This document shows positions 40,880-47,808 of a stretch of DNA of 64,000 bases, piece after piece. A program made the translations under genes and the position numbers. Source of the DNA: Cytophagales bacterium Alg240-R148 (GTDB taxonomy: Bacteria > Bacteroidota > Bacteroidia > Cytophagales > Cyclobacteriaceae); NCBI GenBank assembly GCA_900537185.1, contig LS999826.1, positions 1,196,379 through 1,260,378 of the forward strand, given 5' to 3'. The notes beneath the pieces were generated by a model. It had not been told where the DNA came from, made no database searches, and worked only from the letters and a program-made list of their open reading frames with translations. How positions within the stretch are numbered: position 1 is the stretch's first letter; the number at the start of each line of letters is the position of its first letter.

Positions 40880-40910
40880 TTTGTAATTAATTCTTTTGTC
40901 TATACATTTG
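40880..40910 (+). promoter_or_regulatory. Consensus Bacteroidota promoter of the rtcB-prfH unit
   Basis: TTTG at 40880-40883 and TACATTTG at 40903-40910 are separated by exactly 19 bases, a perfect match to the TTTG/N19/TAnnTTTG consensus. The transcript should start near 40917, giving an untranslated leader of about 230 bases before rtcB. Confidence 0.8.
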
Positions 40911-40944
40911 TATTCAAATCCTTTAATCAAGAAAGGAACTCGTT

Positions 40945-40992
40945 ATGATGGATCTTAATATACATACCGCACCTGTAACCGTCCTCGGTTAA
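40945..40992 (+). CDS. Short leader ORF (15 residues) ahead of rtcB
   Basis: The frame ATG ATG ... TAA encodes MMDLNIHTAPVTVLG. An AAGGA at 40933-40937 lies 7 bases before the ATG, a good ribosome site that is unusual for a Bacteroidota gene start. The stop codon TAA (40990-40992) touches the 5' arm of the following terminator. The last codons also form a small hairpin, AACCG-TCCT-CGGTT at 40977-40990. There is no run of one amino acid, so classical amino-acid attenuation is unlikely. The ORF looks like a leader peptide whose translation or termination controls read-through into rtcB-prfH. Confidence 0.6.
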   Translation: MMDLNIHTAPVTVLG

Positions 40993-41039
40993 TTTCTCAA
41001 TACCACTTGTTGTGCCTGATTGAGAAATCGGGTTTTTTT
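40984..41039 (+). terminator. Intrinsic terminator (attenuator) between the leader ORF and rtcB
   Basis: ATTTCTCAAT (40992-41001) pairs perfectly with ATTGAGAAAT (41019-41028), and CTCG (40984-40987) can extend the stem with CGGG (41029-41032). Seven Ts follow at 41033-41039. It lies inside the leader of the rtcB transcript, so it must be bypassed for expression. Two more hairpins follow at 41044-41068 and 41099-41126, the second just ahead of the rtcB start. Confidence 0.75.
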
Positions 41040-41146
41040 ATGTCTTGAATTCAAATCGGAATTTCAAGCAATACACAATTATGTTTTAAAATATCATATT
41101 TTGAATGGGTTGTTTCCTATTCAAAACACCATTATAAGTATCCATT

Positions 41147-42544
41147 ATGGGAAATTTAAAAGGCAAAGACCTTAAAAAAATAAATTACCGTTCTAACGAA
41201 CAAATAAGCATGGCCAAGGGGGTTATGGCCCAACATTACAAATACCTTCAAAAAGAAAAAAAAATAGAACTTCTCTGCGATGTAAGAGACAATTACGAGC
41301 AATACCTAGACCACGAGCATTGGGCCGGTGTTGCATCCGGGTTTGAAACAAATATTCTGGTGCAAAATGAGACAATCGAATTGTTGCCACAAGCATTGGA
41401 CTATGCCGTATTTGGGTCTGAATTAATCAGCAGCAATGCAAGACAGCAAATGAATTTGGCCATGCGTTTGCCCATAAGTAGGGCTGGCGCTATGATGCCC
41501 GATGCCCATATGGGATATGGCCTACCGATTGGTGGCGTTTTGGCTACTGAAAATGCAGTAATTCCGTATGGCGTTGGTTTGGATATAGGTTGTAGAATGA
41601 GCCTCACCCTTTACGATTTGAACCATAGACATTTCGTTAAACACCAATACAAGTTTAAAATGGCTCTCAAAGAAAGAACTTGTTTTGGTTTGGGAGGAGA
41701 GATAGGAGTGCCACAAGAACATACTATCTTAGAGGACGAACGTTTTAAGATGACCGACCTCACTAGAAAACTTAAAGGCAAAGCAGTTAAACAATTGGGG
41801 AGTTCAGGTTCCGGAAACCATTTTGTAGAGTTTGGGCTGGTCGATTTAGAAGCCAACAATGGGTTGGGGCTTGAAAAAGGAAGCTACATTGGGTTGATGG
41901 CGCATAGCGGATCACGGGGCTTTGGGGCAGCTGTGGCTGGTCATTATACTCGTGTAGCAAAGGAAACTACTTTTCTGCCTAAAACAGCAGGGCATTTGGC
42001 TTGGTTGGGTTTGGATACTGAAGCCGGATTGGAATATTGGGAAAGCATGCAATTGGCTGGAGATTATGCCAAAGCTTGCCACGATCAAATTCACTATAAC
42101 ATTCAAAAGTACTTGGGCATACAACCTTTGTGCGTGATTGAAAACCACCATAATTTTGCTTGGAAGGAAAAACAAAAAAATGGACAAGAATGGGTAGTGC
42201 ATAGAAAAGGAGCTACTCCAGCTGGAAAAGGAGCAATGGGCATTATCCCAGGGAATATGATCCAAGCAGGTAAAATAGTAAAAGGGCTAGGCAATGAACA
42301 GTCGTTACAATCTGCGTCCCATGGAGCTGGAAGAAAATCATCCAGAAAGGCCATGAAGGAAAGCCTTACAAAAAGTGCCATGACCAAACAGTTGAAGCAG
42401 GCTAAAGTGACCTTGTTGGGAGGCGCTGTTGATGAAGCCCCACAGGCTTACAAAGATTTAAACAAGGTAATGGAATGCCAAACTAACTTGGTGGAAACAA
42501 TAGGCAGTTTTGAACCATTGATGGTACGGATGGACAAAAAATAA
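41147..42544 (+). CDS. rtcB: RtcB-family RNA ligase (PrfH-associated type)
   Basis: This 465-residue ligase joins RNA 2',3'-cyclic phosphate or 3'-phosphate ends to 5'-OH ends using GTP and manganese. The active-site region GVGLDIGCRMSL holds metal-ligand C149. SSGSGNHFVEFG, MAHSGSRGFG and IENHHNFAW supply further ligands. H392 in ASHGAGRKSS is the residue expected to be guanylylated. A prfH gene follows by 5 bases. PrfH-linked RtcB enzymes are reported to repair 16S rRNA cut in the decoding centre. The first ~75 residues form an extra N-terminal region compared with the shortest RtcB proteins. Expression probably depends on the upstream leader and attenuator. Confidence 0.93.
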   Translation: MGNLKGKDLKKINYRSNEQISMAKGVMAQHYKYLQKEKKIELLCDVRDNYEQYLDHEHWAGVASGFETNILVQNETIELLPQALDYAVFGSELISSNARQQMNLAMRLPISRAGAMMPDAHMGYGLPIGGVLATENAVIPYGVGLDIGCRMSLTLYDLNHRHFVKHQYKFKMALKERTCFGLGGEIGVPQEHTILEDERFKMTDLTRKLKGKAVKQLGSSGSGNHFVEFGLVDLEANNGLGLEKGSYIGLMAHSGSRGFGAAVAGHYTRVAKETTFLPKTAGHLAWLGLDTEAGLEYWESMQLAGDYAKACHDQIHYNIQKYLGIQPLCVIENHHNFAWKEKQKNGQEWVVHRKGATPAGKGAMGIIPGNMIQAGKIVKGLGNEQSLQSASHGAGRKSSRKAMKESLTKSAMTKQLKQAKVTLLGGAVDEAPQAYKDLNKVMECQTNLVETIGSFEPLMVRMDKK

Positions 42545-42549
42545 AAACA

Positions 42550-43254
42550 ATGCAAACAAAAAAATACATACAGTTAAGTGCAGGACAAGGCCCAGCAGAA
42601 TGTTGTTGGGTGGTGGCTCAAGTACTTAAAAAGTTATTAAAGGAAGCCAAATCTTACGGTGTAACTACGGAAGTTGTACACAGAGAAGAAGGCGTAGAAA
42701 ACAATACGTTGCTGTCTGCAGTGGTTCAACTAGAAAGTACAGATCTGTCTGAATTTTTGGCCCGATGGGTTGGATCTGTATTGTGGGTTGGGCAAAGTAA
42801 ATATAGAAAGTTCCACAAAAGGAAAAACTGGTTTATTGGCATTCAAGAGGTTTTTGTAGGGCAGGCTGCCTTGCAAATAAAAGAATCTGATATAAAATAC
42901 GATGCCATTAGGGCAGGAGGTCCTGGTGGCCAACATGTCAATAAAGTAAGTACGGCAATTAGAGCCAAACATTTACCTACTGGCCTACAAGTTGTTGCTT
43001 CAGATCAAAGATCGCAGGCCCAGAATAAGAAAAATGCGAAAGACCGACTAGAAGTGTTGGTTCAACTGAGTACGAAGGATAAAATCAAGGAAAAAGCCAA
43101 ATCTGGATGGCTGCAGCACAAACAATTAAATAGAGGCAATCCAGTTCGGGTTTTCCATGGAAGTGATTTTAAATTAAAACACGAAAAAAATAAAAATAAA
43201 GAACGCAGGAGCAAAGACAAACAAATGTTGAAAAAAGGAAGGTATGAAGATTGA
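42550..43254 (+). CDS. prfH: Peptide chain release factor-like protein PrfH
   Basis: This 234-residue protein keeps the peptidyl-tRNA hydrolysis domain with the GGQ motif at residues 126-128 (RAGGPGGQHVNKVSTAIR). It lacks the long N-terminal and codon-recognition domains of RF1 and RF2. The Lys-rich C-terminus (RRSKDKQMLKKGRYED) suits ribosome binding. PrfH is thought to free nascent chains from ribosomes with a damaged decoding centre so that the partner ligase can repair the rRNA. The 5-base gap to rtcB indicates one operon. Confidence 0.93.
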   Translation: MQTKKYIQLSAGQGPAECCWVVAQVLKKLLKEAKSYGVTTEVVHREEGVENNTLLSAVVQLESTDLSEFLARWVGSVLWVGQSKYRKFHKRKNWFIGIQEVFVGQAALQIKESDIKYDAIRAGGPGGQHVNKVSTAIRAKHLPTGLQVVASDQRSQAQNKKNAKDRLEVLVQLSTKDKIKEKAKSGWLQHKQLNRGNPVRVFHGSDFKLKHEKNKNKERRSKDKQMLKKGRYED

Positions 43255-47733: not shown

Positions 47734-47808
47734 GAGGCATTAGCTCAGTTGGTTTAGAGCACTACCTTGACAGGGTAGGGGTCATTGGTTCGAATCCAAT
47801 ATGCCTCA
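47734..47808 (+). tRNA. tRNA-Val (anticodon GAC)
   Basis: The cloverleaf folds fully. The acceptor stem is GAGGCAT/ATGCCTC and the D-stem GCTC/GAGC. The anticodon stem CTACC/GGTAG has loop TTGACAG (anticodon 47769-47771). The T-stem ATTGG/CCAAT has loop TTCGAAT. The discriminator base is A and the CCA end is not encoded. The gene lies between two strong terminators and appears to be transcribed alone. Confidence 0.96.

Follow-up and report, generated by a model that had tools for sequence, protein, structure and literature searches.

In the window, the 64,000-nucleotide stretch of DNA analysed here, prfH lies directly 3' of an rtcB-like gene, and both genes are preceded by a leader ORF and an intrinsic terminator that, read from the sequence, together occupy 40945-41039 (Table 1). 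The window's RtcB matches RtcB family models, but its score stays under the curated cut-off of TIGR03073, the PrfH-linked model. Its genome holds one prfH copy, two weaker matches resembling ordinary release factors. The leader ORF starts 202 bp 5' of rtcB and has a ribosome-binding site, while the gene 5' of the leader region lies on the opposite strand.

Table 1. Positions of the leader elements and of the rtcB and prfH genes in the window
Feature	Position	Strand	Basis
Sigma-A type promoter, Bacteroidota form, TTTG-N19-TACATTTG	40880..40910	+	Sequence, mainly position
Promoter elements TTTG and TACATTTG, 19-nt spacer	40880-40883; 40903-40910	+	Sequence
Shine-Dalgarno (SD) sequence of leader ORF, AGAAAGGA	40930..40937	+	Pairing energy -10.3 kcal/mol
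Leader ORF from ATG 40945, 15 codons MMDLNIHTAPVTVLG plus TAA (40990-40992)	40945..40992	+	Sequence
CATACC, window variant of conserved CATATC, 18 nt past the start codon	40963..40968	+	CATATC in most relatives
P1 5' strand TTTCTCAAT, competing helix, begins just past the stop codon	40993..41001	+	Predicted
P1 3' strand ATTGAGAAA, overlaps the terminator	41019..41027	+	Predicted
Intrinsic terminator CCTGATT-GAGA-AATCGGG-TTTTTTT (stem 41015-41032)	41015..41039	+	Terminator listing and pairing analysis
AT-rich hairpin	~41044-41068	+	MFE fold, position read from sequence
AT-rich hairpin close to rtcB start	~41099-41126	+	MFE fold, position read from sequence
rtcB (RNA ligase), without SD, start pairing energy 0.1	41147..42544	+	NCBIfam matches below curated cut-off
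prfH (release factor H)	42550..43254	+	TIGR03072, 230 bits against a cut-off of 166.65

Several of these elements had been recognised in the initial annotation. The consensus promoter is present where it was placed, but because its pattern matches twice in the window against 0.93 expected, which is within chance for the window alone, the call rests mainly on position. The two further hairpins described ahead of rtcB both reappear in the MFE fold, and the fold z-score is -2.86 for 40917-41050 and -4.44 for 40917-41160. At Rfam gathering thresholds, the sole match in the whole window is a tRNA at 47734-47808 (RF00005), downstream of and distant from the leader. When nine loci were searched at E up to 1, the only match over a leader was a weak, sub-threshold one to anti-hemB in L023 (23.1 bits against the 49.5 needed). 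By eye, the T-run of the leaders is often followed by [AG]TG[CT]C (41040-41045 in the window, and in relatives).

Since the sample contains a single genome of the window's genus, conservation was compared at the family level and above. Judged from sequence, the predicted leader attenuator is conserved ahead of rtcB-prfH in relatives. The initial annotation had reported a 15-residue ORF with an intrinsic terminator and had proposed conservation of ORF and hairpin as its test; both are present, and they recur. Among 295 family genomes searched, 20 carry prfH and 19 of these have the leader directly upstream, the remaining one (G238) having it at the end of another contig. Upstream regions were taken from the best 80 named loci among the matches listed in a search with the window's RtcB protein, and from genomes found by PrfH searches of the family and the order. 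The 112 regions, including the window, became 107 distinct ones after removal of five duplicates, 74 with prfH downstream and 33 without (L093 counts among the former, its prfH overlapping rtcB by one base).

A strict pattern (SD, ATG, 12-19 nt, CATATC), searched in the last 1100 nt 5' of rtcB starts, occurs at 38 of the 107 distinct starts listed, at none on the reverse strand (0/107) and at a mean of 0.15 in shuffled sequences; the window, with its CATACC, is not among the 38. The pattern tracks prfH, being found at 35 of 74 listed loci with the gene and 3 of 33 without it (Fisher p = 1.4e-4). When a looser rule was combined with inspection by eye and a model, a leader was found in 53 of the 74 listed prfH loci (43 by regular expression; L029, L033, L053, L060, L061, L069, L088, L115 and L124 by eye; L039 by the model) and in 7 of the 33 others (L043, L057, L064 and L071 by regular expression; L035, L049 and L051 by the model). 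L077 was dropped as a chance-like regular-expression match and is still within the 48 leaders of the SD comparison below. None of the three approaches gave a confident leader in 21 of the 74 prfH loci, which include 10 Flavobacteriia, L026 with only 413 nt upstream, and the weak candidates L028 and L135; by eye, several of the 21 have another gene directly upstream of rtcB.

Model R1, built from 17 leaders and run on the 295 family genomes, gave 23 matches with E < 1e-6 in 21 genomes, 10 of them training sequences, and the next match had an E of 3e-4. Sixteen of the 23 precede rtcB-prfH, two precede prfH units that have no rtcB in the fetched stretch (G002, G188), four precede a TPR gene, and one, that of G238, lies at a contig end. 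A second model, R2, built from 13 leaders mostly of the Sphingobacteria/Chitinophaga type, was applied blindly to 395 class genomes. Of its six best matches, which were examined, all four with E < 1e-5 precede rtcB operons, one being identical to a training row, and the next two (E 4e-4 and 5e-4) do not. No match to the leader was found in phages. A wider target set in the window's own genome was rejected, as the pattern matched eight times there, once at the leader itself, against nine times when reversed; of the other seven matches, the one examined (L107) sits inside a long ORF.

The TPR protein whose gene follows four of the R1-matched leaders has 171-198 residues. Clear copies of its gene number 12 across the 295 family genomes (E < 1e-30), two weak matches with 24-27% identity having been left out of the count. 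Six of the 12 lie in leader-headed prfH operons, five behind rtcB-prfH and one behind prfH, while the other six stand alone, each with its own leader, recognised by the model in four and by eye in two (G013, G048). In G238, the link between TPR gene and leader is not established because the leader is on another contig. G289 and G008 (L176, L178), the latter a genome only 83% complete, carry the TPR gene with its leader and have no prfH at E 1e-30. The TPR gene has already been noted as a neighbour of RtcB-PrfH (PMC6514570), and the portion of that paper available to us makes no mention of a leader accompanying the stand-alone gene. The leader also tags the TPR gene as a member of the RtcB-PrfH pathway even when it is alone.

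Other observations concern the neighbourhood of these genes. Downstream (3') of one stand-alone TPR gene behind a leader, L177:3505-3993 (minus strand) encodes a protein of 162 residues without a Pfam match. Beside rtcB, several Bacteroidota encode basic proteins of about 240-290 residues that look alike (L090:2261-2995, L043:4399-5277 and L143:648-1394, in the rtcB orientation), and the two members tested have no Pfam family above threshold. L043 also holds two RtcB-like genes close by on one contig (510-1916 and 3001-4395), and a sub-threshold match to YrlA (Y RNA-like) that overlaps a tRNA-like match lies near rtcB in Pedobacter caeni (L064:5861-5968). Defence-system profiles gave no match for RtcB, PrfH, the TPR or the accessory gene.

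A terminator combined with a leader ORF could also belong to an ordinary amino-acid attenuator, a riboswitch or a plain terminator of upstream transcription. The features of amino-acid biosynthesis attenuators are absent here: the leader peptides contain no codon run, in agreement with the initial annotation, and no biosynthetic genes lie downstream. In addition, Rfam gives no match at the leader above threshold, the same leader heads rtcB, prfH and TPR units, and the orientation of the upstream gene argues against a terminator of upstream transcription. Consequently, we consider such an ordinary element extremely improbable.

A leader length of 15 codons is common in relatives. In one group of leaders CATATC follows the start codon at 18 nt, or at 21 nt in some; another group has it at 17 nt, or at 20 nt in some. 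In the first frame, covering 37 leaders, the motif is read as CAT ATC, with His in 36/37, always CAT, and Ile in 36/37, always ATC. In the second, it is read as xAC ATA TCx in 19/22 leaders, with Ile encoded by ATA in 22/22, Ser kept in 22/22 and a C-terminal Ala in 19/22. CATATC lies in the third frame in L031 and behind a stop codon in L074. As third positions are fixed and the frame changes, CATATC appears to be constrained as RNA. A peptide-level constraint is also indicated, because Leu at codon 2 is spelled by five codons, Glu by GAA and GAG, Gln and the terminal Ala also vary synonymously, and L088 keeps Asn-Ile-Ser while its AGT codon disrupts CATATC. With constraint of both kinds in evidence, CATATC was rejected as a pure peptide motif or a pure RNA motif. 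The peptide-level conservation would suit an arrest mechanism, in which the nascent His-Ile or His-Ile-Ser peptide stops the ribosome under a defined signal. This is unlikely, as CAT and ATC show no synonymous change in the one frame, and the motif is frame-shifted in the other group, stands in a third frame in L031 and follows the stop codon in L074.

SD pairing energies were computed against an assumed 16S tail. Against it, leader SDs pair with a median of -12.5 kcal/mol and reach -7 kcal/mol or lower in 31 of 48 leaders (a set that includes L077 and had been selected for a minimal SD), compared with 1/48 rtcB starts of the same loci and 13/428 long ORFs. The ribosome site called strong in the initial annotation is strong indeed, AGAAAGGA pairing at -10.3 kcal/mol; 16/48 leaders lie at -13 kcal/mol or lower, the approximate limit for the extended SD of rpsU, although these values were obtained with a program that differs from that of PMC9976891 and with the assumed 16S tail.

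These energies invite the view that the leader senses the 16S 3' end: the strong SD would make the leader, and not rtcB, depend on an intact, exposed 16S tail, so that ribosomes cut near the 3' end could not read the leader and the mending ligase would be made. Leader pairing far stronger than that of rtcB starts or long ORFs is consistent with such a sensor, as are the strong-SD leaders of two stand-alone TPR genes and the description of Bacteroidia ribosomes as mostly ignoring SD sequences (PMC9976891). However, three of the six stand-alone TPR leaders (L176, L177, L179) and the rtcB leaders L035, L051 and L039 lack an evident SD and keep the ORF and attenuator, and SDs are weak in the Sphingobacteria/Chitinophaga group. 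Because several leaders without an evident SD retain the switch, we assign this reading a low probability. Pairing of CATATC with 16S rRNA was set aside, as no 16S 3' end could be read in the window's own genome or in relatives: an SSU model had no match in the own genome nor in 7 of 8 relatives, and string searches recognised no 16S 3' end in L144, the SSU-matching locus of the remaining relative. L144 contains a loxP-like string.

A T-run terminator is found in 25 of the 56 leaders tested, nine of which had been included by eye; that of L090 is probably spurious. The terminator's 5' arm is predicted to pair alternatively with a stretch that lies at the end of the ORF or close to it, forming a helix that we call P1. 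Compared with shuffled sequences, P1 reaches p < 0.05 in 15/25 leaders (combined Fisher 1e-17, related rows included). The initial annotation had let the terminator's 5' arm begin at the leader stop codon; the helix beginning there is instead P1, and the terminator lies further downstream (Table 1). The window's P1 (TTTCTCAAT/ATTGAGAAA) begins at ATG+47, more downstream than in most relatives, and is not significant alone (p 0.168). The competition is clearest where GACCGGG/CCCGGTC opposes the terminator CCCGGTC/GATCGGG. Compensating versions of P1 do occur, namely GACCGAG/CTCGGTC (L177), GATCGGGAA/TTCCTGATC (L178) and GACCGGA/TCCGGTC (L120), but no excess of covariation emerges from the alignment.

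That alignment, A3, made with MAFFT, comprises 17 of 24 terminator-type rows; L119-L122 were omitted from the second alignment because their terminators were misaligned in the first, L032 and L123 are in neither, L124 is in the first only and L060 in the second only. In A3, P1 pairs in 74% of cells, as against 23-51% when slid, while neither P1 pairing (119/500) nor covariation (109/500) exceeds that of shuffles, and RNAalifold recovers the terminator only, not P1. Since A3 scores within shuffles, the statistical case for P1 consists of complementarity and position, not of counted covariation. A P1-like helix also reaches p < 0.05 in 13/31 leaders without a terminator, and the leaders of Flammeovirga, Sphingobacteria and Chitinophaga have P1-like helices but no T-run terminator. 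Pairing of the 5' UTR with the leader SD in a hairpin was rejected as a general feature (p < 0.05 in only 5/56). The hairpin is kept as a possibility for the Sphingobacteria/Chitinophaga group, in whose consensus fold it appears, one sequence having a pair altered on both sides.

We simulated the effect of translation by folding 30 leaders (23 of the 25 terminator rows, without L090 and L123, plus seven further leaders) naked and with a ribosome placed on either the start or the stop codon, the covered nucleotides being masked. The mean terminator probability is 0.61 for naked RNA, drops to 0.52 when the ribosome occupies the start and rises to 0.84 when it occupies the stop; in the window, the corresponding values are 0.00, 0.00 and 0.78. 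In nascent RNA transcribed as far as the terminator 5' arm, the mean P1 probability is 0.64, 0.78 and 0.16, respectively. A ribosome at the stop codon raises the terminator over the naked state in 26/30 leaders, by at least 0.1 in about 17. The sign is opposite in L030, L041, L118 and L180, where the terminator is also less likely than with a start ribosome (in L118, it drops from 0.79 for naked RNA to 0.25 once a ribosome sits at the stop). In 5/30 (L023, L032, L088, L118, L125), nascent P1 remains above 0.5 despite a ribosome at the stop.

The initial annotation had proposed that a release failure holds the ribosome at the leader stop codon, masking the terminator 5' arm and allowing read-through. 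A helix does begin at that codon, and the operon's product PrfH is a release factor relative, which would fit such a signal. Yet this helix is the terminator's competitor, the terminator arm begins 22 nt past the stop codon in the window (22-44 nt in the 30 leaders), and in 26/30 the terminator becomes more likely with a ribosome at the stop. Besides, P1 starts at ATG+24 to +33 in 21/25 leaders while their stop codons range from +30 to +57. A stop-codon ribosome that blocks the terminator thus does not fit the predicted folds, and failed termination as the signal runs against the published Pseudomonas equivalent PA5471.1, in which complete translation forms the terminator; we regard the proposal as very unlikely.

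Instead, because a ribosome at the stop codon is predicted to spare the terminator arm and to favour the terminator, completed leader translation would turn the operon off, and both the simulation and the published Pseudomonas leader point to failure to complete the leader, rather than failed termination at its stop codon, as the signal. We therefore think it likely that the leader is a ribosome-mediated transcription attenuator, off upon complete leader translation and on upon an early stall or an unfinished leader. A ribosome translating all 15 codons would cover the P1 5' strand at and after the stop codon; as P1 could then not form, its 3' strand would be free for the overlapping terminator, and RNA polymerase would halt before rtcB. 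With a ribosome stalled at or near the start, or with the leader unfinished, P1 would form first and disrupt the terminator, and rtcB-prfH would be transcribed. The parts of this attenuator are present and conserved, and P1 and the terminator are mutually exclusive by prediction. We infer translation of the leader, termination by RNA polymerase at this site, and a natural trigger that consists of damaged or drug-stalled ribosomes; ribosome failure is the most likely signal of the rtcB-prfH attenuator.

Short leaders also precede rtcB-prfH beyond Bacteroidota: one of 15 codons with a strong SD (MTNPLSMTLCRPFQD) in E. coli, another of 15 codons in Proteus and one of 13 codons on a Klebsiella IncC plasmid. 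The same ORF scan gave none in Skermanella. In all three leaders, a predicted helix between SD and ORF (p <= 0.002) overlaps a P1-like helix, which starts at ATG+27, +27 and +23 in E. coli, Proteus and Klebsiella and is reached by 0/1000 shuffles in E. coli, with p 0.03 in Proteus and 0.005 in Klebsiella; one compensating pair distinguishes the E. coli and Proteus helices. CATATC was not seen in these leaders, R1 had no match in one E. coli locus nor in a Thiodictyon locus, and the literature searched does not mention the three leaders. The leader peptide of E. coli HUE1 (L228:1-470), in which the rtcB-family gene carries a pseudogene annotation, is identical to that of L226:1200-1480. The truncated E. 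coli K-12 homologue ykfJ is described as induced by 4-azaleucine, which interferes with translation (PMC3516279).

Bacteroidota have a predicted attenuator in this position, and E. coli, Proteus and the IncC plasmid have leaders there. These data suggest that RtcB-PrfH repair generally senses failed translation, and they raise a directly testable question, namely which ribosome damage turns the operon on. A bolder proposal, which we hold to be doubtful, is that leader attenuation is ancestral to RtcB-PrfH control across phyla and has become in Bacteroidota a portable regulon switch by which the condition of the small subunit itself is read through CATATC and the extended SD, which needs the 16S 3' tail, CATATC lying just beyond the initiating ribosome and kept as RNA in more than one frame. 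If so, 16S repair would be on exactly when the 16S 3' region fails to start the leader, and rtcB, having no SD, could still be translated.

The proposed attenuator shares parts with several known systems. The vmlR leader of Bacillus subtilis likewise combines a uORF-controlled antiterminator with an intrinsic terminator, and is described as induced by translation defects as well as antibiotics; it differs in controlling an antibiotic-resistance ABCF protein and in using an anti-antiterminator (PMC9226507), which is predicted in few of our leaders (nascent P1 at most 0.07 naked and 0.64-0.90 with a start ribosome in 5/30). The toiL uORF of E. coli and the whiB7 uORF of Actinobacteria are likewise short ORFs that sense several translation stresses; toiL, however, unmasks a ribosome-binding site and acts with Rho, and neither uORF is described with RNA-repair genes (PMC12121999). 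The extended SD of Bacteroidota rpsU is likewise exceptionally strong among SD-less mRNAs, but it is reported to act on the translation of rpsU itself, with no attenuator (PMC9976891), and the leader SD of the window does not belong to rpsU.

In the literature searched on rtcB-prfH leaders, only the Pseudomonas armZ-prfH leader turned up; the conservation of the leader, its presence ahead of three genes, the motif that crosses frames and the geometry shared between phyla were not found there, and a term search of the accessible text of the E. coli rtcB2-prfH paper (PMC9223846) found no leader mentioned. The core idea is already published in one species. In Pseudomonas aeruginosa, a 13-residue leader, PA5471.1, lies ahead of armZ (PA5471, RtcB-like) and prfH (PA5470) (PMC12057347, PMC3516279, PMC13041342). 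There, ribosome-targeting drugs are reported to cause read-through, complete translation to form the terminator and stalling to turn the gene on, an early amber codon or a deletion spanning the leader raising ArmZ (PMC12057347, PMC3516279, PMC3884212, PMC13041342); a 2025 review still calls the mechanism proposed. As in Bacteroidota, a short leader (about 250 bp upstream in Pseudomonas) is followed by an RtcB-like gene and then prfH, and completed translation leads to the terminator, in Bacteroidota by prediction in 26/30 leaders. Unlike PA5471.1, the Bacteroidota leaders have CATATC, a His-Ile peptide and a two-part P1/terminator switch, carry a strong SD where the phylum seldom uses SDs, and are also found ahead of stand-alone TPR genes and of prfH units that lack rtcB. 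By its structure and predicted sign, and likened through published descriptions rather than by sequence, the Bacteroidota leader probably works like PA5471.1.
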